From contig JAJPIA010000085.1 of assembly GCA_021324975.1 (NCBI GenBank), positions 122,006 to 186,005 of the forward strand: a stretch of DNA of 64,000 nt, given 5' to 3'. The position numbers were made by a program, and so were the translations under genes. Position 1 is the first letter of the stretch. Every line of letters starts with the position of its first letter. Positions 1,731 to 21,697 of the stretch are shown in pieces. The stretch comes from Bacillota bacterium (GTDB lineage: Bacteria > Sysuimicrobiota > Sysuimicrobiia > Sysuimicrobiales > Segetimicrobiaceae). The notes under the pieces were generated by a model that made no database searches, was not told where the DNA came from, and saw only the letters and a list, made by a program, of their open reading frames with translations.

Positions 1731-1759
1731 TTGTCGCGGCGTCACTCCGCTGGTATTAT
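1731..1759 (+). promoter_or_regulatory. Sigma-70-type promoter of the Hyf/Ehr-like operon
   Basis: TTGTCG (1731-1736) and TATTAT (1754-1759) are separated by 17 bp. The predicted start is near 1766, about 35 nt upstream of the fluoride aptamer. The -35 box is 51 bp from the divergent moxR -35 box. Confidence 0.72.
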
Positions 1760-1799
1760 TGCCGCGGTAAGAAGCGCGCTCTCATACGGCGCCCGGCTC

Positions 1800-1854
1800 C
1801 TGGCGATGAGGCTCGCCATATAACCGCGTGTTTCGACGCTGATAGCCTCTGCAG
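1800..1854 (+). ncRNA. Fluoride riboswitch (crcB motif) controlling the Hyf/Ehr-like operon
   Basis: The aptamer is close to consensus. P1 is GGCGA (1802-1806) with TCGCC (1813-1817). The conserved AAC (1822-1824) precedes P2, GCGT (1826-1829) with ACGC (1836-1839). TGATA (1840-1844) follows. The pseudoknot pairs GAGGCT (1808-1813) with AGCCTC (1844-1849). The long-range pairs of fluoride aptamers are present: A1806 with T1840, and A1842 with T1850. The pseudoknot strand is also the start of the terminator's 5' arm, so fluoride binding should prevent termination and switch on the downstream genes. Formate-hydrogenlyase-type genes are among those I recall being associated with crcB motifs. Confidence 0.9.
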
Positions 1855-1880
1855 CCTGTTCGGCTCTGCAGAGGCTTTGT
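1844..1880 (+). terminator. Intrinsic terminator, expression platform of the plus-strand fluoride riboswitch
   Basis: AGCCTCTGCAG (1844-1854) pairs perfectly with CTGCAGAGGCT (1866-1876), followed by TTTGTTGCGTTT. The first six bases of the 5' arm are also the pseudoknot strand of the aptamer. From here to the first start codon (1881-2042) I see no ORF or further conserved structure, only the ribosome binding site GGGGAGGTGA just before 2043. Confidence 0.88.
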
Positions 1881-2042: not shown

Positions 2043-2987
2043 GTGGCCGCCCACATGCTCTTCAACGTGATCCAGGCGCTTACGGTCCTGCTCCTATCGC
2101 CGCTCGTCAAGGGAGTTTTGGATCGGTGGAAGGAACGCGTCCAATCGCGCCGCGGGCCGACCATCTGGCAACCGTATCGAGATCTTTGGAAACTTTTCCA
2201 GAAGGACGAGGTGGTTTCTGACCAGAGCTCGTGGATCTTTCGGGCGACGCCCTATGTTGTGTTCACGATGCCGCTCTTCGTGACCCTTCTGATCCCCGCG
2301 CTCACAACATACCCGCTGTTCTTCGCCTTTATGGGGGACATGCTGGGGGCCGGATTTTTGCTCGCGTTCGGCGGATTCTTCGCAGCGCTCGCGGCCGTCG
2401 ACACGACGAATCCCTACGGTGCCATGGGGGCGAGCCGGACCCGAATGGTTGGCTTCCTGGCCGAACCGGTGTTCATCATCGTTTTCTTCACCATCTCGTT
2501 CGTCGCCGGCTCGACGATTCCGTACATCGTCCAACAGCAATGGGTTTCGCCGCCGTCCAACTTCTTTGAGCCTTCGCACGTCCTGATTATGCTGGCCTTT
2601 CTCATGCTCTTACTGGCGGAGGCGGGTCGGATTCCGGTGGACAGCCCGTCCGGCCACTTCGAGCTCGCCATGATCGACGAGTCGAAGAACCTGGAGTACT
2701 CGGGGCGCGGCGCCGCGCTCATGAACTGGGGCGGCGCGATGAAGTTCATGGTACTCCAGCTGGTCTTCCTCAATGTCCTCGTCACGCCGTGGGGTCTGGC
2801 GCAGACTCCGTCACTCGCCGCGGTGATGCTGGCGATTCCGCTCGTATTTTCCAAGATCCTCGTGCTGCTCGCCGTGCTCACGGTCATCGAGTCGTCGCTG
2901 GCGAAGCTGAGGCTTTTCCGCATTACGGAGTTTCTGGGCGCGGCGTTCGTCATCGCGACCGTTGCGATGATCACGCGCATCTTCTAG
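2043..2987 (+). CDS. HyfC/HycD/NuoH-like membrane subunit
   Basis: This 314-residue, multi-helix protein is the NuoH/HycD-type subunit that anchors the peripheral arm to the membrane arm in hydrogenase-like complexes. The family loop is visible as AEAGRIPVDSPSGHFELAMIDE (about 192-213), with E193, D200, H205 and E207, and the N-terminal QSRRGPTIWQPYRDLWKLFQKD is also typical. GTG at 2043 follows GGGGAGGTGA by 4-5 nt. It is the first gene after the riboswitch terminator and heads a tight six-gene operon. It has no redox centre of its own; the family links Fe-S cluster reduction to ion movement. Confidence 0.92.
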   Translation: MAAHMLFNVIQALTVLLLSPLVKGVLDRWKERVQSRRGPTIWQPYRDLWKLFQKDEVVSDQSSWIFRATPYVVFTMPLFVTLLIPALTTYPLFFAFMGDMLGAGFLLAFGGFFAALAAVDTTNPYGAMGASRTRMVGFLAEPVFIIVFFTISFVAGSTIPYIVQQQWVSPPSNFFEPSHVLIMLAFLMLLLAEAGRIPVDSPSGHFELAMIDESKNLEYSGRGAALMNWGGAMKFMVLQLVFLNVLVTPWGLAQTPSLAAVMLAIPLVFSKILVLLAVLTVIESSLAKLRLFRITEFLGAAFVIATVAMITRIF

Positions 2988-3001
2988 TCAAGGAGCGTCG
3001 A

Positions 3002-3679
3002 GTGGTGCAATCAGCGTGGGCGGTGGCGCTCAACGATCTGGCCGGCGGGCTCTTTCTGTTGACAGCCGTCGCACTCGTTGTTGTCCGGCAGGTGCAAGCG
3101 TGCTTGGCGGCGTTCGTGTTGGAGTCCGTGCTGCTCGCCGCTTCGGCGTTCATTCTGGCGGCCGCGTCCGGCATCCCCGACCTCGTCGCCGTCGGCTTGA
3201 TCACGATCGCCGTCAAAGCCGTCCTCCTGCCCTGGCTGCTTCGCGGCACGGTCCCCGAAGAGATCTACACTCGTCGGGAACTGTCACAACTCGTCAATGT
3301 CCCTGCATCGCTCCTGATCGCCCTGGCGCTCACCCTGGCCGCGTATCTCATCGCCGTGCCCCTCGCGCCGGCGCAGGATGCCTTTATCAGGGTCAATCTT
3401 CCCATCGGTCTCGCCGGGCTCTTCATCAGCGCTTTGTCGCTGGTCACGCGTCGCGAGGCCGTCCCGCAGCTCGTCGGGTTGTTGGCCATGGAAAATGGCG
3501 CGTTCCTGGCCGGCGTCTCCATCGCGCCTGACCTCCCGTTGATCGCCGAGTTGGCCGCGTCCTTCGACGTGCTGGTGATCGTCCTCGTCATGGGCATCTT
3601 GACCCGTGCCATTCACGAGCATGTCGGCACGACCGACATCGTCGAGCTTGTGGAGCGAAGCGACGAGGAAGAGCTGTGA
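3002..3679 (+). CDS. HyfE-like (NuoK-type) membrane subunit
   Basis: The protein has about 225 residues, nearly all in hydrophobic helices, with a short acidic tail (ELVERSDEEEL). Length, the motif SGIPDLVAVGLITIAVKAVLLPW and the position between HyfC-like and HyfF-like genes fit HyfE, a fusion related to NuoK/MrpC. AAGGAG at 2990-2995 precedes two in-frame GTG codons at 3002 and 3005, and either could be the start. The next gene overlaps its stop by 4 bp. The role is structural and ion-conducting in the membrane arm. Confidence 0.86.
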   Translation: MVQSAWAVALNDLAGGLFLLTAVALVVVRQVQACLAAFVLESVLLAASAFILAAASGIPDLVAVGLITIAVKAVLLPWLLRGTVPEEIYTRRELSQLVNVPASLLIALALTLAAYLIAVPLAPAQDAFIRVNLPIGLAGLFISALSLVTRREAVPQLVGLLAMENGAFLAGVSIAPDLPLIAELAASFDVLVIVLVMGILTRAIHEHVGTTDIVELVERSDEEEL

Positions 3680-5109
3680 CGCTCATCGTGATCCCGCTCT
3701 TGCCCCTGGCGGCGGCGCTCTGGGCACTGTTCCCGCAGCGAGGGCGCGCTGCCGCCGGAGCGACGATGGCGGCGGCCGCCGCGGCCGCGGGGGCCGCATG
3801 GAGCGTAGCGCTACGGAGCGCCGCCGGCGCTCCCACGGTTGCGATATCTGGATGGATCGCCTGCGACGGTTTGGGCGCGCTCGCGCTCGTGCTCGTGGCC
3901 GGAGTGAACCTCAGCGCCGCGATCTTTTCCTACGGTTACGTGTCGGCCCGCCTTGCGCCCGCGGGATCCCGGGCGGAACGCCGATACTACGTCGACTACA
4001 ATCTCTTCGCCGGCTCACTCCTGCTCGTACCGCTGCTGTCGGAACCCGCGCTCGTCTGGATCGCGATCGAGCTGACGACGCTCCTGTCGGTGTTTCTGGT
4101 CGGGTTCACCCGAACGCGCGGCGCCCTCGAGGCGGCGTGGAAGTACGTCGTCCTTACGCTGATGGGCGCGGCGATCGCTCTCCTCGGGTTTCTCCTCCTC
4201 TATTGGGCGTTGCGGGGCGCGGGAGGCGCCGCGTTCACATGGGATGGGCTCACGGCGGCCGCCCCGCGCATGCCGGCGGGTCTGATGCAGGCGGCCTTCC
4301 TCCTCGTTCTCGTTGGCCTGGGCGCCAAGCTCGGACTCGTCCCGTTGCACACGTGGGTCCCGGATGCGTACCGCCATGCACCGGCTCCGGTCTGCGCGCT
4401 TCTGTCCGGGGCGGAAGCCACGGTCGTGCTCTATGCGATTCTGCGTCTCGTGCCGGTAGCGGCCGGGGTGCCCGGCGCGCACGCTGGGGGCTGGCTCATT
4501 GGCTTTGGACTGCTGTCCGTTGGCGTGGCGGTTTTTCTCATCCTCCAGGCGAGCGACTACAAGCACGTGTTTGCCTACTCGACGATCGAGCACATGGGCA
4601 TCATCCTGGTGGCTGCGGGTCTCGGGGGAGCGCTCGCCTCCTACGGCGCAGCCGCACAGGTGCTTGCGCATTCCGTCACCAAGACATTTTGTTTTCTTGC
4701 CGCGGGGGCGGCCGCGGTGGTGACGCCGCGGCGTGAGATCCAAGGGCTCCTGCGAATCTCGCCGGTTGCCGGCGCGGCGCTGCTGCTCGGAGGGCTCGCG
4801 ATTGCGGGGGCCCCTCCGCTCGCGGTCTTCCTCAGCGAGTTCACGATTTTCCGGGCGGGGTTCGCGGAGCGATACCCGATCGCCGCCGCGCTTCTGGCCG
4901 GGTTTGTCGCCGTTGGATTCTTCGCCGTGATGGCGCATGTGAACCGCGCGGTCTTTGGCCGCGCCGGCGTGCGTAAAGTCATCCCCTTGCCGGGGGCGTG
5001 TGTGTTCGCGCTGGCAGCCGCCTCCGTCCCCGTGTTGTGGCTCGGTGTGTACGTCCCCCGCCCTGTTCTCGGGCTTCTCCATCAGGCGGCGCTGTGGATT
5101 GGGAGGTGA
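3676..5109 (+). CDS. HyfF-like antiporter-type membrane subunit
   Basis: The protein has 477 residues and about 14 predicted helices of the proton_antipo_M family (NuoN/M/L, MrpD, HyfF). The charged residues of the ion path are kept: E132 in IAIELTTLLS, K218 in GLGAKLGLVPLHTWVPDAY, K296 in ASDYKHVFAYSTIEHMG and K336 in AHSVTKTF. The GTG start overlaps the previous stop (GTGA). Retention of these residues shows selection for ion translocation even though the redox subunits of this operon are degenerate. Confidence 0.9.
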   Translation: MTLIVIPLLPLAAALWALFPQRGRAAAGATMAAAAAAAGAAWSVALRSAAGAPTVAISGWIACDGLGALALVLVAGVNLSAAIFSYGYVSARLAPAGSRAERRYYVDYNLFAGSLLLVPLLSEPALVWIAIELTTLLSVFLVGFTRTRGALEAAWKYVVLTLMGAAIALLGFLLLYWALRGAGGAAFTWDGLTAAAPRMPAGLMQAAFLLVLVGLGAKLGLVPLHTWVPDAYRHAPAPVCALLSGAEATVVLYAILRLVPVAAGVPGAHAGGWLIGFGLLSVGVAVFLILQASDYKHVFAYSTIEHMGIILVAAGLGGALASYGAAAQVLAHSVTKTFCFLAAGAAAVVTPRREIQGLLRISPVAGAALLLGGLAIAGAPPLAVFLSEFTIFRAGFAERYPIAAALLAGFVAVGFFAVMAHVNRAVFGRAGVRKVIPLPGACVFALAAASVPVLWLGVYVPRPVLGLLHQAALWIGR

Positions 5110-5116
5110 GAAACGC

Positions 5117-6709
5117 GTGAGCCCTGTAGATCGCGCCGGCGCAAGCCGGACGGGTATCGACGCGCTGGTCAGGGCCGAGTGGCCGGACGTCGCTATTTCG
5201 AGCGACGGCCGCGCGGCGACGATCGCCTGCCCGCCGGAAGCGCTGCGCGGGGTCTGCCGTCGCCTCTTTAGCGACCTCGGATATGCCTTTGGAGGGCTTG
5301 TAGTCGAGGATGCCCAGGCGGTCTGGAGCCTGCGCTACTTGTTCTACAGCCCTCTGGCGGAGCTGGCGCACGTGGTGACCGAGTGCGTCAAGCCCTCCGA
5401 AACGGTGCCGAGCATCAGCGTCGAGGTCCACGCAGCGGACTGGCATGAGCGGGAGGCGGAAGACCTCTTCGGGTTGGGTTTTGAGGGGCATCCACGCCTT
5501 GGGGACTTCGTCCTGCACAACGACGTCTGGCCGGAGAGCGTCGCGCCGATGCGCCGGTCCTTCGACCCCGCGGTGCGTGCGCCGTTGCACCGGCCCGATC
5601 CGAATTGGGCGCCCCTCCGCCTCGTGGATGAACCGGGCGCGTTCCTGATGCCCGTCGGACCCATTTACTCCGATATCACCGAGAGCGCGCTCTTCCTCCT
5701 CGAAACGGTCGGCGAAGACGTCATCCGCGTCTTCCCTCGTCTATTTTACAAATACCGCGCCGTGGAGAAGAACGCCGAAGGACGCAGCGTCGACGACGGG
5801 CTGTTGGTGGCGGAACGATTCGCCGCCACGTCGGCGTTCGCGCACTCGCTCGCCTTCTGCCACGCGGTGGAACAGATCGGCGGGATCGCCGTGCCGCCTC
5901 GCGGGCGCACGCTCCGCATCTTCCTCGCCGAACTCGAGCGGCTGCGGCACCACGTCGCGGCCATCGAAGGGATCTGCGCGTCGACCGCCCTCGCGGTGGC
6001 CGCAAGTCAGGCGGCGATCCTCGAGGAACAACTCTTGCGGCTATCGGGCGCGCTGACGGGCCACCGGTACCTGTTCGGGCTCAACGTGCCTGGGGGACTC
6101 GCACGGGACCTCGAGACGGCGGCGTGCCGGGAAACGGCGGCGTCGGTCGGAACCGTGCTCCACGGATTGTCGCGGCTGCGCGAGATGCTCCGGTTTTCAT
6201 CGAGCTTTCTCGACCGTATCGAAGGCGTCGGCGCGATCGCTGAGCAGGCGGCATTGACGCACGGACTGGTGGGCCCGATTGCCCGCGCGTCGAACGTGGC
6301 GCGCGACCTCCGCCGCGCACAGCCCTACGGAGGCTACGAACAATTCGAGTTTCAGGTGCCGCGGGAGACGACCGGAGACGGCTATGCGCGCCTGCTGGTC
6401 CTCTTCGCGGAGGCGGAGCAATCGACCGGTTTGCTGCGACAGTCGGCGGACCGGTTGTCCGAAGGCCCGGTTCACGTACCGGCGCCGATTCGCGCGGGCG
6501 CCGCCTTCGGATGGTGCGAGGCTCCACTCGGCGCCGCCTTTCACTGGGTGCGGATCGGCGCGGACGGTCGGATCGAGCGATTTCGACCGATCACACCGTC
6601 GTTTGTGAACTGGCACGGCTTTCATCTTGCCGCCGAGAACTTCGCCTTCCAGGATTTCCCGATCATCCTGGCCACCTTCGGCCTCTCGGTCGCGGAGTGC
6701 GATCGCTGA
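5117..6709 (+). CDS. HyfG/HycE-like large subunit lacking NiFe ligands (Ehr-type)
   Basis: The protein has 530 residues. Residues 1-165 form a NuoC-like domain (VHAADWHEREAEDLFGLGFEGHPRL) and 175-530 the hydrogenase large-subunit/NuoD-like domain. The N-terminal motif usually RxCGxCxFAHS reads RFAATSAFAHS, so the two cysteines are A236 and S239. The C-terminal CxxC reads S524-V-A-E527 before CDR. A NiFe site therefore cannot form, as known for Ehr (energy-converting-hydrogenase-related) complexes and NuoD. GTG at 5117 follows GGGAGGTGAG, and longer in-frame starts would lie inside the previous gene. It should pair with the small subunit encoded next. Confidence 0.88.
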   Translation: MSPVDRAGASRTGIDALVRAEWPDVAISSDGRAATIACPPEALRGVCRRLFSDLGYAFGGLVVEDAQAVWSLRYLFYSPLAELAHVVTECVKPSETVPSISVEVHAADWHEREAEDLFGLGFEGHPRLGDFVLHNDVWPESVAPMRRSFDPAVRAPLHRPDPNWAPLRLVDEPGAFLMPVGPIYSDITESALFLLETVGEDVIRVFPRLFYKYRAVEKNAEGRSVDDGLLVAERFAATSAFAHSLAFCHAVEQIGGIAVPPRGRTLRIFLAELERLRHHVAAIEGICASTALAVAASQAAILEEQLLRLSGALTGHRYLFGLNVPGGLARDLETAACRETAASVGTVLHGLSRLREMLRFSSSFLDRIEGVGAIAEQAALTHGLVGPIARASNVARDLRRAQPYGGYEQFEFQVPRETTGDGYARLLVLFAEAEQSTGLLRQSADRLSEGPVHVPAPIRAGAAFGWCEAPLGAAFHWVRIGADGRIERFRPITPSFVNWHGFHLAAENFAFQDFPIILATFGLSVAECDR

Positions 6710-6746
6710 TGCGGCGGCGGCGGCGGTCCCCAAGGAGATATGCGCC

Positions 6747-7508
6747 ATGAGCAACTGGGTGATACGCGGTCTCAGGACGCCGGTTCCCACGACGCGCTTT
6801 CCGGCCGCGCCGGAACGGGCACGGGGGGCGTCTCCAGGTATGCCCCGCGCCACCGTGCTTCCCGAGGAGGTCGCGGCCGATCTCGCGCGCCGCTGCCCCA
6901 CGGGGGCACTCGCGGCGCACGGCGAACGCGTTGTGGTCGATCCGGCACGCTGTGTGCATTCGTTTCGGTGCGTCCGCGGCGTCGCGTCGCCGATGGATTG
7001 GAACCATGGCAACGAATGGGCCGCGCCGCGCGGCACGGACGCACGACCATTCGGCCCGCTCGGGGCGGCCTTCCGTGGGTCGGCGCATATCCTCGTCGTC
7101 GACGCGGGCGACTGCGGCGCGTGCCTCGCCGAGGTGAAGCACCTCAACAACCCCTACTACAACATGCACCGCCTGGGGTTCTTCGTCACACCGACCCCGC
7201 GCAACGCGGATATCCTGCTGGTCGTTGGATCAGGCACCGTGAACATGCGGTGGGCGCTCCGCAAGGCCTACGAGGCGATGCCCGCACCGAAGCGGGTGGT
7301 GGCCGTGGGCACCTGTGCCCTGACCGGGAGCGTGTTTGCGCCGAGCTTCGCGTCGGATGCCGGGATCCACGACCTTCCTGTCGATGTGGCGGTACCGGGA
7401 TCGCCACCGCCCCCCCTCGCGATCCTCCACGGCCTGCTCCTCGTCACCGGACGCGCCCCGGCGGCCCGAAGCGGGTCGGGCCTCGTGGATACAGCTAAGG
7501 CAGACTGA
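6747..7508 (+). CDS. HyfI/HycG/NuoB-like small subunit with degenerate ferredoxin domain
   Basis: The protein has 253 residues. An N-terminal ferredoxin-like part keeps C50 (RCPTGAL), C69 and C75, but the middle cysteine of CxxCxxC is S72 (CVHSFRC). The NuoB-like part has the first two ligands in DCGACLAEV (C123, C126) and the third in VGTCALTG (C190). The fourth, normally VPGCPP, is S219 in VPGSPPPP; the codon is TCG at 7399-7401. The proximal 4Fe-4S cluster is thus short of one cysteine, as is the ferredoxin site. ATG 6747 has AAGGAGAT 7 nt upstream. Serine ligation or altered clusters remain possible. Confidence 0.88.
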   Translation: MSNWVIRGLRTPVPTTRFPAAPERARGASPGMPRATVLPEEVAADLARRCPTGALAAHGERVVVDPARCVHSFRCVRGVASPMDWNHGNEWAAPRGTDARPFGPLGAAFRGSAHILVVDAGDCGACLAEVKHLNNPYYNMHRLGFFVTPTPRNADILLVVGSGTVNMRWALRKAYEAMPAPKRVVAVGTCALTGSVFAPSFASDAGIHDLPVDVAVPGSPPPPLAILHGLLLVTGRAPAARSGSGLVDTAKAD

Positions 7509-9652
7509 TGATGGCGCTCAATGTGCTGGCCGCATCGTTCCTGACCGCGTGCGCAGCCGGGGTGATTGCCAGCGCCACCCTCCCCGATCGGCGTGTTCCG
7601 GCGGTCCTGGCCTGCACCGGGTCCGCGATGGCAATGATGCTCATGGCGATCGGGCTCACGGTGCTCGCGACCGGCCATCTCTGGTCCGCCACGCTGTGGA
7701 CCGTAGCCCCGTTTGGCGCACTGACGCTGGAAGTGGACCGGCTGGCGGCCGTGTTTATCACGGCTATGGGACTGGTATGCCTGCCCGTGTCGCTTTTCTC
7801 CGCCGGTTATTTGCTCCGCTATCTCGGCCGGTACAGCCTCCGATCGTTCGGCATCCTCTACCACGGCCTGCTCGCGGCGATCGCGCTCACGCTCGCCACC
7901 TCCGACGTCCTTGCGTTCCTGCTCGCCTGGGAGGCGATGGCGATCCTGAGCTACTTCCTCGTGAACTATGAACACGAGCAACGCGAGCACACGCACGCAG
8001 GGTACTTAATGCTCGTGATGGGCGAGGCCGGAACGGTCGCAGTGATGGTCGCATTCCTCCTGCTCATCAATGCGGCCGGCGGCCTCCCGTTCGCTGCGCT
8101 GCGACACGCGGCCGCCACAGCGGGCGTTCAGACGCGCTGGGCCGTCTTTCTGTTGTCGTTCTTCGGGTTCGGCGTGAAGGCCGGGCTGTTACCGGGCAGT
8201 TCCTGGCTTCCGCGCGCCCATCCGGCGGCGCCGGCCAACGTGTCGGCCGTGCTGTCCGGCGTGATTCTGAACCTCGGGCTCTACGGCATCATCCGCGTGA
8301 ACCTGGATCTCCTGCCGGCGCACTTGGTCGGCCCCGGCATAGTGGTGTTGGTCGTCGGCAGCCTGTCGGCCCTCGTCGGCATCCTCTACGCAACGACCCA
8401 GAACGACCTCAAGGCGATGCTGGCGCACAGCTCCATCGAAAATATCGGGATTGTGACCGCGGCGTTGGGCGCCGGGCTGGTCTTCGGGGCTTCCGGGGAA
8501 GCGACCCTCGCGAGCATGGCCTACGTCGCCGCGCTGTATCACATGGTGAATCACTCGGCCTATAAAGGACTCTTGTTTCTCGGTGCAGGCGCGGTCGACG
8601 GGGGCGCGGGGGAGCGTCACATGGATCGACTCGGCGGTCTCATCCGACGCATGCCTTGGACAGCCATGTTCTTCCTGGTCGGCGCGCTCGCCATCGCCGC
8701 GATGCCGCCGTTCAACGGGTTTGCCAGCGAATGGCTCACGCTGCAGACCCTGCTGCGCAGCGTCGAGCTCCACGCGACGGCGGTCAAGATCGTCTTCGCA
8801 CTGTGCGGCGCGGCCCTCGCCTTGACGGCGTCGCTCGCGGCGACCTGCTTTGTGAAGACCTTTGCGATGAGCTTCCTGGGGTTGCCCCGTTCAGGCGCCG
8901 CCGGGTCCGCGCACGAAGCGGCCCCTACCGCGCTGGCGGCCATGGGGATCCTGGCGGCGGTGTGCCTCGCGCTCGGCATCCTGCCGACTTACACGATCCC
9001 CGCGCTGAGCGGCGCCGTGGCGCCGCTGACCCACGCGAGCGCCGCGGACGCCCTCGTTCCGTCGTTCTTCGCGCCCGCAACGCCGGGGCACGCCCTGCCC
9101 GCGTCATTCGTAGCCGACTTTCGCACGCTTGGAGCGCAGGTCGGCCGGCACCTGCTGCCGGGCCGCGGGCTCATCGTATTGCTTCGCGGCGGGACCGATA
9201 ACCCGGTCGTCTTCGCGATGTCGACCAGCTACGCGTTCCCAGTGCTTCTGGGGCTGATCGGACTTGTCTACCTGGCCGTCCACGTTGGGACCCGAGCCCG
9301 CACGCTCGCGCGCCGACCGCGATGGGACGGCGGCGTGCCGCGGCTCGACCCGGAAATGACGTATACGGCCACCGGATTCTCCAACCCCGTCCGGGTCGTG
9401 TTCAATGCCGTCTTCCATCCATCCATGGCGGATGACACTACGGAGGTGGTGGCGGAGCACTTTCGGACGGCCGTTCGACGCGCGCGCGTCGAGACATACG
9501 TGGCCGACCGGTTTGTCGCTGATCCCCTCGCCGGTTGGTCACACGGCCTCGCCCGCGCGCTCGCGGCGATGCACCGCGGCGGCCTGAACACGTACGCGGC
9601 GTACGTGCTCCTCACGCTGCTGTTGGTCCTGGTGGCCGCGCGGTTGCTGTAG
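7508..9652 (+). CDS. HyfB-like antiporter-type membrane subunit
   Basis: The protein has 714 residues, about 14 antiporter helices plus a long C-terminal part with a last helix, as in HyfB/HycC/NuoL. Ion-path residues are present: E142 in AWEAMAILSYF, K224 in FGVKAGLLPGSSWLP, K302 in TQNDLKAMLAHSS and K353 in HSAYKGLLF. ATG at 7508 overlaps the previous stop by 1 bp (TGATG), and it is the last gene of the operon. Together with the HyfF-like subunit the complex has two antiporter-type subunits. The following 166 bp (9653-9818) lie between convergent genes and show no clear terminator. Confidence 0.9.
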   Translation: MMALNVLAASFLTACAAGVIASATLPDRRVPAVLACTGSAMAMMLMAIGLTVLATGHLWSATLWTVAPFGALTLEVDRLAAVFITAMGLVCLPVSLFSAGYLLRYLGRYSLRSFGILYHGLLAAIALTLATSDVLAFLLAWEAMAILSYFLVNYEHEQREHTHAGYLMLVMGEAGTVAVMVAFLLLINAAGGLPFAALRHAAATAGVQTRWAVFLLSFFGFGVKAGLLPGSSWLPRAHPAAPANVSAVLSGVILNLGLYGIIRVNLDLLPAHLVGPGIVVLVVGSLSALVGILYATTQNDLKAMLAHSSIENIGIVTAALGAGLVFGASGEATLASMAYVAALYHMVNHSAYKGLLFLGAGAVDGGAGERHMDRLGGLIRRMPWTAMFFLVGALAIAAMPPFNGFASEWLTLQTLLRSVELHATAVKIVFALCGAALALTASLAATCFVKTFAMSFLGLPRSGAAGSAHEAAPTALAAMGILAAVCLALGILPTYTIPALSGAVAPLTHASAADALVPSFFAPATPGHALPASFVADFRTLGAQVGRHLLPGRGLIVLLRGGTDNPVVFAMSTSYAFPVLLGLIGLVYLAVHVGTRARTLARRPRWDGGVPRLDPEMTYTATGFSNPVRVVFNAVFHPSMADDTTEVVAEHFRTAVRRARVETYVADRFVADPLAGWSHGLARALAAMHRGGLNTYAAYVLLTLLLVLVAARLL

Positions 9653-13481: not shown

Positions 13482-14813
13482 TTACAGGCCGATCAGCGAC
13501 ACGTCGAGCGCGCGCGCGTCGAACGTGGGGTCCACCGCCCGCATCAGCGCGAGGTTGGCGCGGGCGTCCCTGGCATCCCCGAGCGCGTTTGCGATCACAG
13601 CCGCGCGATAGTAGAACCGCGCATCCCGTACGCCCCACCGCAGGGCGCGGCGGATCGTCTGCTGCGCCTCCTCCCAGCGGCCGGCGCGGGACAGGGCCCA
13701 CGCCATCGTATCAAGCGTCTCGGCGTCGGCGCGGACGGCGACTTCCTGCCGCATCAACGCGAGCGCCTCCGGCAGATCGGCGGCGCGGCCGCGGGTCAGC
13801 AGCAGACGCGCGAGCTCGCGCCGGTGGCCGTAGGCGCCGGACGCTGCGTCCTGGCGCAGCCGCGCCTCGGCGTCCGCCCAGAACCGCGCCGCTTCCGCGT
13901 GGCGGCCCTCAAGATCGCGCGCCTGCGCGATCCCGCGCAGCACGACGTGGTCGTACACGTTGGGGGCGTCGCGCGTCACCGTCACCACGCGGGTCAGGTG
14001 GTCGACCGCAGCCTCGTACCGGCCCTGGCGTAGATCGAGCACCGCCAGGTCGGTCAGCGCGAGCGGGTACTGCGGCAGGATCCGCAGCGCCTCGGTGAAC
14101 AGGGCGCGCGCCTCGTCGAACCGCCCGTGCTGATAGAGGAACCGCCCGTAGAGGCTGCGCACCCAGGTCGAACTCGCGGTCTCGTCCGGCTCTTCGAGCC
14201 CGAGGGCGCGCCGGTAGTCCGCCTCGGCCGCCGCGTCCTGCCCCTGCGCGATTTCAACCAGCGCCCGCAGCGCGTAGGACCGCAGCGACCGGTCGGCGGC
14301 CAGCAGCGTCCGAACCGCCCGAGATGCCGCCGGCACGTCGCCCCGCGCCAGGTTCGAGGTTACGATGATCGGCACCGCCTCGTCGCTTGGCCCCGCCGCC
14401 CGGGCGAGTCCCAGCGCTTCCTGAAAATCGTGGCGGGCTTCGGCCACGTGCGCCAGCGTCAGGACGGCGCCGTCATTATTCACGGTGAGGCGCGCCAGCG
14501 AGGCCCGCGCCTCCTGCTCGGCCAGCAGGTACCAGCGGAGATCGCCGGTGATGCGAGCTTCCTTGAGGTAGGCGCCGGCGAGTCCCGCGCGGTCGAGAGC
14601 GCCGTCGGGATTGCGGGCGAGCCGGTCCTCGTAAAACGCGATCTCGGCGTGGAGCAGGGTCGAGATCGCACCCGGCGCCGGACGCTCAAAGCGGTACCGG
14701 TAGGGCGAGTCGCCGCGCCCGCCGCGGGCCGCGTGCGCGAGACCGATACCGGCGGCGAGCAGCGCGGCGATGCCGAGCGCAAGGATCCCCGAACGACGCC
14801 GTGTCACATCCAT
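13482..14813 (-). CDS. TPR-repeat protein with N-terminal membrane anchor
   Basis: The protein has 443 residues. An N-terminal hydrophobic segment (GILALGIAALLAAGIGLAHA, about 9-28) is followed by TPR-type helix pairs, for example SLYGRFLYQHGRFDEARALFTEALRILPQYPLALTDLAVLDLRQGRYEAAVDHLTRV. The region outside the membrane is thus a protein-binding scaffold. It sits between DUF4331 and HupE/UreJ-like genes, an arrangement that suggests they act together at the cell surface. ATG 14813 follows a GAGG. Confidence 0.85.
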   Translation of the reverse strand: MDVTRRRSGILALGIAALLAAGIGLAHAARGGRGDSPYRYRFERPAPGAISTLLHAEIAFYEDRLARNPDGALDRAGLAGAYLKEARITGDLRWYLLAEQEARASLARLTVNNDGAVLTLAHVAEARHDFQEALGLARAAGPSDEAVPIIVTSNLARGDVPAASRAVRTLLAADRSLRSYALRALVEIAQGQDAAAEADYRRALGLEEPDETASSTWVRSLYGRFLYQHGRFDEARALFTEALRILPQYPLALTDLAVLDLRQGRYEAAVDHLTRVVTVTRDAPNVYDHVVLRGIAQARDLEGRHAEAARFWADAEARLRQDAASGAYGHRRELARLLLTRGRAADLPEALALMRQEVAVRADAETLDTMAWALSRAGRWEEAQQTIRRALRWGVRDARFYYRAAVIANALGDARDARANLALMRAVDPTFDARALDVSLIGL

Positions 14814-21620: not shown

Positions 21621-21697
21621 TGGTCGGGCCGGGCGGATTTGAACCGCCGACCACCTGAACCCCATTCAGGTGCGCTACCAAGCTGCGCTACGGCCCG
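21621..21697 (-). tRNA. tRNA-Pro (GGG anticodon)
   Basis: The minus strand folds as a 77-nt tRNA. The acceptor stem is CGGGCCG with CGGCCCG, the D-arm contains GCGCAGCTTGGTAGCGC, the anticodon stem CCTGA/TCAGG holds a loop reading GGG, and the T-arm contains GGCGGTTCAAATCCGCC. The discriminator A and CCA are encoded (21624-21621). The GGG anticodon reads proline CCC and CCT codons. Confidence 0.96.

Follow-up and report, generated by a model that had tools for sequence, protein, structure and literature searches.

What is a fluoride riboswitch doing in front of an operon that looks like a hydrogenase? Within the window (the whole stretch of DNA analyzed, 64,000 nucleotides), a six-gene operon at 2043–9652(+) resembles hydrogenase-4, hyfCEFGIB. 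The association of such genes with the riboswitch has already been published under the name "formate hydrogenlyase": Weinberg 2010 listed formate hydrogen lyase among the genes downstream of the crcB motif and noted terminators that overlap the motif (PMC2864571). A first-pass annotation of the locus instead took fluoride control to imply a part in fluoride or HF tolerance rather than fermentation. We consider it probable that an ON-type transcriptional fluoride riboswitch here controls a nickel-free complex of the Ehr kind, within the complex I superfamily, that serves fluoride/HF tolerance; fluoride induction and ion transport are inferred. The case is built by sequence on the aptamer, the alternative pairing, the operon, the loss of the nickel–iron site, conserved ion-path residues, and cross-phylum linkage.

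A Fluoride Riboswitch Precedes the hyf-Like Operon

An Rfam cmscan of the 64 kb matched the fluoride riboswitch model RF01734 at 1793–1858(+) with 35.4 bits (E=4.3e-6), narrowly over the gathering score of 34. P1, P2, and the P1-loop pseudoknot (GAGGC/GCCTC) all form in the window copy, and they covary: 99.3% of cells are paired over 23 copies, with 30 double-changed cells against a shuffled mean of 9.6. The near-consensus crcB aptamer proposed by the first-pass annotation was thus borne out, and the Infernal check that it suggested was passed. A chance aptamer is ruled out by the RF01734 score, the covariation, and recurrence in other genomes. As a member of its family, the riboswitch is unremarkable, sharing aptamer, pseudoknot, and terminator overlap; it departs from the typical member in scoring near the cut-off and in belonging to a divergent pair, one of two such pairs inside 6 kb.

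The leader also contains an intrinsic terminator stem of 11 perfect pairs at 1844–1876(+), which also appears in the minimum free energy structure. Its arms (1844–1854 and 1866–1876) are exactly complementary, and the 5′ arm overlaps the pseudoknot strand GCCTC, so that the strand AGCCTC doubles as half of the terminator just as first annotated. For the full-length leader, the terminator form is the predicted fold (z=−2.9). Distinct perfect hairpins of 11 bp number just five in the 64 kb, and two of them are the terminators of the two window riboswitches. The hairpin, with its loop of 11, was not among the terminator-scan listings, and the T tract 3′ of the stem is weak (TTGTTGCGTTT), which leaves the termination efficiency uncertain. 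The promoter claimed upstream has a counterpart in a promoter-like site, TTGTCG-17-TATTAT with an extended −10 TG, at 1731–1759(+) (9/12 matches), and the claimed six-gene operon follows; a pattern-scan match of this kind is by itself no evidence of function. In the absence of fluoride, the AGCCTC strand would form part of the terminator; binding of Mg-fluoride would keep it in the pseudoknot and let transcription go on. This "full switching logic," like fluoride binding and fluoride-dependent expression, is inferred from the leader's sequence.

Loss of the Nickel–Iron Site and Conservation of Membrane Charges

In the operon, a HyfC/HycD/NuoH-like membrane subunit (2043–2987(+); Pfam NADHdh, 7.3e-32) is followed by a HyfE-like membrane subunit with an approximate start (2987–3679(+); NCBIfam hydrogenase 4 membrane subunit, 8e-18, under the equivalog cut-off). 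Proton_antipo_M was found in two operon subunits. The HyfF-like antiporter-type subunit (3676–5109(+); Pfam Proton_antipo_M, 4.4e-43) retains K156, K218, K296, and K336, and the HyfB-like antiporter-type subunit (7508–9652(+); NCBIfam hydrogenase 4 subunit B, 2.8e-173, under the equivalog cut-off) retains K224, H349, and K353. Between them are a HyfG/HycE-like large subunit (5117–6709(+)) and a HyfI/HycG-like small subunit with an N-terminal ferredoxin-like stretch (6747–7508(+); Pfam Oxidored_q6), both with approximate starts. No counterparts of hyfA, hyfD, or hyfH were found in the six-gene operon.

Although the best solved relative of the large subunit is HycE of the E. coli formate hydrogenlyase (7z0s, 1.6e-50), the window protein lacks the nickel–iron cysteines: their four columns read A, S, S, and E. 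The loss is family-wide, with the CxxC pair kept in 0/81 large subunits (the window copy and 80 relatives) and the C-terminal nickel–iron positions occupied by Ser in 79/81 and by Glu in 80/81. HypD had no match in the ~96%-complete genome in a search that detected E. coli HypD as a control. In an HMMER alignment of the large subunit, the column of the complex I quinone-site Tyr, whose position in the 49-kDa subunit we take from general knowledge, reads A/G.

The iron–sulfur ligands are altered more unevenly. A 4-Cys ferredoxin-like site is still present in most relatives; of the N2 cysteines, three are retained in about 76/80 small-subunit rows and the fourth (PGCP) in 35/80 only. In 31 small subunits, the PGCP Cys gives way to N/D/Q/H/S (PGxP), and a Cys stands ~17 columns earlier; judged from the alignment, this earlier Cys looks like a relocated N2 ligand. 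Both of the likely Fe-S sites in the window small subunit are short of one ligand, with Ser (S72 and S219) where Cys would be expected: Ser replaces one ferredoxin-site cysteine, and neither the PGCP Cys nor the earlier Cys is present. In two relatives (L141 and L142), the remaining N2 cysteines are replaced as well (GASGAL, GDDA) while the membrane subunits are still present, and these complexes are possibly redox-dead versions. In HyfB, HyfF, and HyfC, in contrast, the charged membrane residues vary little or not at all across the family, HyfB E173, K224, and K353 being among the invariant ones. The ion path, therefore, is strongly constrained, whereas the redox path has been rebuilt or is eroding.

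Linkage of Riboswitch and Operon Across Relatives

A one-genome-per-species scan for relatives turned up 80 loci, whose NCBI labels span at least 13 phyla, although labels of metagenome-assembled genomes can be wrong. Many are from metagenomes of mines, bogs, and springs (as judged by record names), and Acidithiobacillus is also represented. Linkage was counted in the 67 loci with 350 or more bases upstream of the first gene. Using our own model, R1, built from the window's phylum, we found a same-strand riboswitch within 1.2 kb in 53/67. R1 missed copies with a GGCAUU-type pseudoknot (L078, L106, and L142) that Rfam recovered, so its counts are lower bounds. The Rfam re-check added nine loci, some of them under the cut-off (L105, L107, L110, L112, and L138), bringing the loci with a riboswitch before the operon to 62/67. 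A dynamin-like GTPase gene stands between riboswitch and hyfC in three further loci (L081, L096, and L098); in L131, the riboswitch lies 2.6 kb upstream with other frames between, and in L137, none was found upstream of the operon. A more distant relative, L151, was left unjudged, the upstream part of its locus being too short. Within the window's phylum, the complex occurs in 2/43 genomes, both with a riboswitch, and the copy in the second (G028) scores 33.9 bits, barely under the cut-off. Dynamin-like GTPase genes stand directly behind fluoride riboswitches in L098 (4983–6752), L081, L096, L079, and L100.

The search for relatives used motifs conserved between two fluoride-linked copies, and the 62/67 is biased accordingly. 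Less affected is a class-wide contrast, for which 369 genomes of Acidithiobacillus' class were ranked by large-subunit match. Among the 12 best matches (at least 236 bits), 11 have a same-strand riboswitch 3.2–3.9 kb upstream, whereas none of the 42 weaker matches in these genomes has one nearby (Fisher p=1.3e-10, nominal since the rows are related). In a quick tree search, the fluoride-linked subtypes A (LSxxE) and B (SGVGS) formed one clade (SH-aLRT 97), separate from the nickel-free, riboswitch-lacking subtype C, from hydrogenases, and from complex I. Three genomes (G044, G117, and G311) hold both subtypes, with a riboswitch of its own before each copy. The weaker rows that were aligned make up a second nickel-free hydrogenase-like family (L161–L181; SGDSTVAHAW...NKSVNGSYSG), present in many genomes of the class without a riboswitch nearby.

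CrcB homologues occur in 24/80 loci, in three of them (L069, L086, and L142) between riboswitch and hyfC. Riboswitches in related loci also precede genes for enolase, pyrophosphatase, phosphofructokinase, an Na/H exchanger, DUF190, a metallophosphoesterase, and MutS. A number of these genes belong to the classic fluoride response (PMC11139923, PMC2864571).

Divergent Riboswitches and a Genomic Fluoride Island

The first-pass annotation overlooked a second, divergent fluoride riboswitch in the window, at 1628–1553(−), as well as two more ~6 kb to the left, outside it. The divergent copy scores 32.7 bits, slightly under the gathering score (E=3.2e-6 in 6.5 kb). It has a near-consensus promoter-like site, TTGACG-18-TATAAT (1650–1679(−); 11/12 matches), and a terminator with an exact stem of 11 pairs followed by TTTTTGG (1539–1567(−)). 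The first gene behind it encodes a MoxR-type AAA ATPase (536–1513(−); Pfam AAA_3, 7.5e-62); DUF58, a 382-aa membrane protein, and DUF4129 follow in an operon that extends leftward beyond the window. In the genome as a whole (4.43 Mb, 144 contigs, ~96% complete), there are four RF01734 matches, all inside 6 kb of one contig (C10) and arranged as two divergent pairs. One pair sets two MutS-like genes and a Nudix gene against an MFS transporter; the other sets the MoxR-DUF58-membrane-DUF4129 genes against the hyf-like operon.

Several features of this island stand beside the main question. MoxR/DUF58 genes recur in L065 and L123 and are absent from the usual fluoride gene lists in the literature found. 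In the coordinates of locus L005, riboswitch 13977–13907(−) is followed by genes at 13886–10756, which encode two MutS-like ATPases in a row, with MutS domain V only, and a Nudix hydrolase; the MutS pair recurs in 11–13 related loci. The MFS gene (L005, 14298–15746) lies behind the genome's best fluoride riboswitch (14215–14278(+), 40.6 bits); MFS homologues are present in 19/80 related loci, and the riboswitch-linked transporter is a candidate fluoride exporter. No known fluoride exporter, whether CrcB or a fluoride-type CLC, was found in this ~96%-complete genome, in which an exporter could be missed; its one CLC carries, by inspection, the canonical GSGGS/GREGP motifs. Elsewhere in the window, an ordinary tRNA gene lies at 21624–21697(−) (RF00005, 63.2 bits).

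Proposed Function of the Complex Under Fluoride

That the complex serves fluoride/HF tolerance rather than fermentation, as first proposed, gains support from the family-wide loss of nickel–iron ligands, the lack of HypD, and the cross-phylum pairing with the riboswitch, and further from the 11/12 versus 0/42 contrast and from CrcB, enolase, pyrophosphatase, and MutS neighbors, several with riboswitches of their own. We infer that HF entry would acidify the cell while loading it with fluoride. The induced complex might then use its HyfB/HyfF/HyfC-like subunits to move H+ (or Na+/K+ in exchange for H+), restoring the pH and the proton motive force needed for fluoride export, and would act alongside exporters and replacement enzymes. 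The Fe-S clusters of most relatives could still carry electrons to an unidentified acceptor; in the window copy and some others, the ligands are thinned and redox coupling may be altered or lost.

A real formate hydrogenlyase or hydrogenase-4, which would consume protons as H2 or support fermentation when fluoride blocks glycolysis, agrees with the gene set and with the best solved relative, and a 2024 review calls the riboswitch-linked genes formate hydrogenlyase and interprets them as anaerobic formate metabolism (PMC11139923). However, a functional hydrogenase has to be rejected: all four nickel–iron cysteines are replaced, no family member has a CxxC pair, the genome lacks HypD, and the operon lacks hyfA, hyfD, and hyfH counterparts, so the sequence contradicts this account and leaves it hardly any credence. 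It is also quite improbable that the complex itself exports fluoride or HF. The absence of a detected CrcB and the canonical GSGGS reading of the only CLC would leave room for such a role, but an exporter may have been missed in a ~96%-complete genome, the riboswitch-linked MFS gene in the island is an equally good candidate, many relatives also have CrcB, some in the same operon, and no anion path is known in subunits of these types.

The tolerance complex that we prefer could take two forms. In one, a redox-driven ion pump, ferredoxin or another donor would pass electrons through the Fe-S clusters to the unidentified acceptor, and the energy would pump H+ or Na+ under fluoride stress. The 4-Cys ferredoxin-like site and three N2 cysteines of most relatives, with an apparently relocated ligand in 31, speak for this form, which we regard as a serious possibility of somewhat less than even chance: there is no hydrogen site, A/G stands where complex I has its quinone Tyr, both alternatives for the N2 Cys are missing from the window copy, which carries S72 besides, and L141/L142 lack the other N2 cysteines. 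We lean toward a redox drive in those members whose ligands are complete and are doubtful of it in the window copy. The other form, a redox-independent, Mrp-like cation/proton antiporter with the hydrogenase-like arm only as scaffold, would account for eroding Fe-S ligands in several members beside invariant membrane charges, and fluoride regulons often include Na/H antiporters (PMC11139923). Yet the soluble subunits, most cysteines, and the Ser/Glu pair at the old active site are well conserved, and this form seems unlikely, though not one to dismiss.

Transport direction, ion, and energy source are not fixed by sequence, and ion movement and its energy source remain inferences. Fluoride regulation alone is no proof of protection; the complex could compensate for a fluoride-inhibited enzyme. 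A bolder and rather doubtful extension is that a nickel-free clade of hydrogenase relatives turned into a fluoride-defense machine and spread between phyla of mostly acidic habitats, with some lineages, including that of the window, losing the Fe-S chain and running the complex as a non-redox transporter of ions, possibly fluoride/HF.

Discussion

The complex sits among several known systems. With the E. coli formate hydrogenlyase and hydrogenase-4 (Hyc, Hyf), it has homologous membrane and soluble subunits and a similar gene set in common; unlike them, it lacks nickel–iron ligands and, in the operon, genes for formate dehydrogenase or ferredoxin, and it is under fluoride control. With respiratory complex I, it shares NuoH/L/N/B/CD-like subunits and proton-path residues, without the NADH module or the quinone-site Tyr. 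Antiporter-type subunits are common to it and the Mrp cation/proton antiporters, to which it adds hydrogenase-like soluble subunits. Another such system is the Ehr complexes, which are group-4-related and NiFe-free and occur, for example, in Nitrospira and Margulisbacteria: the features that define them (group-4-like subunits, a large subunit without CxxC, and antiporter-like membrane subunits) are all present here, with the key lysines invariant. In contrast, fluoride is not mentioned in the published Ehr reports that we found, and the nickel-free subtype C has no riboswitch.

The function of the Nitrospira Ehr complexes has been described as unknown (PMC10284858), and the hyf cluster of A. 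caldus has been read as H2-evolving pH control (PMC3826726). In the literature readable without a subscription, which does not include the 2012 article on the fluoride riboswitch, we found no paper linking that riboswitch to Ehr, hydrogenase-4, or NADH dehydrogenase; within the same limits, the nickel-free, Ehr-type identity of the riboswitch-linked genes was not found stated. The real interest lies in the controlled complex and in the breadth of the riboswitch–operon pairing. Joining the Ehr and fluoride literatures gives one Ehr clade a testable physiological setting. It also corrects the fermentation reading of these genes and indicates an unstudied layer of fluoride tolerance beyond the Fluc and CLC-F exporters.
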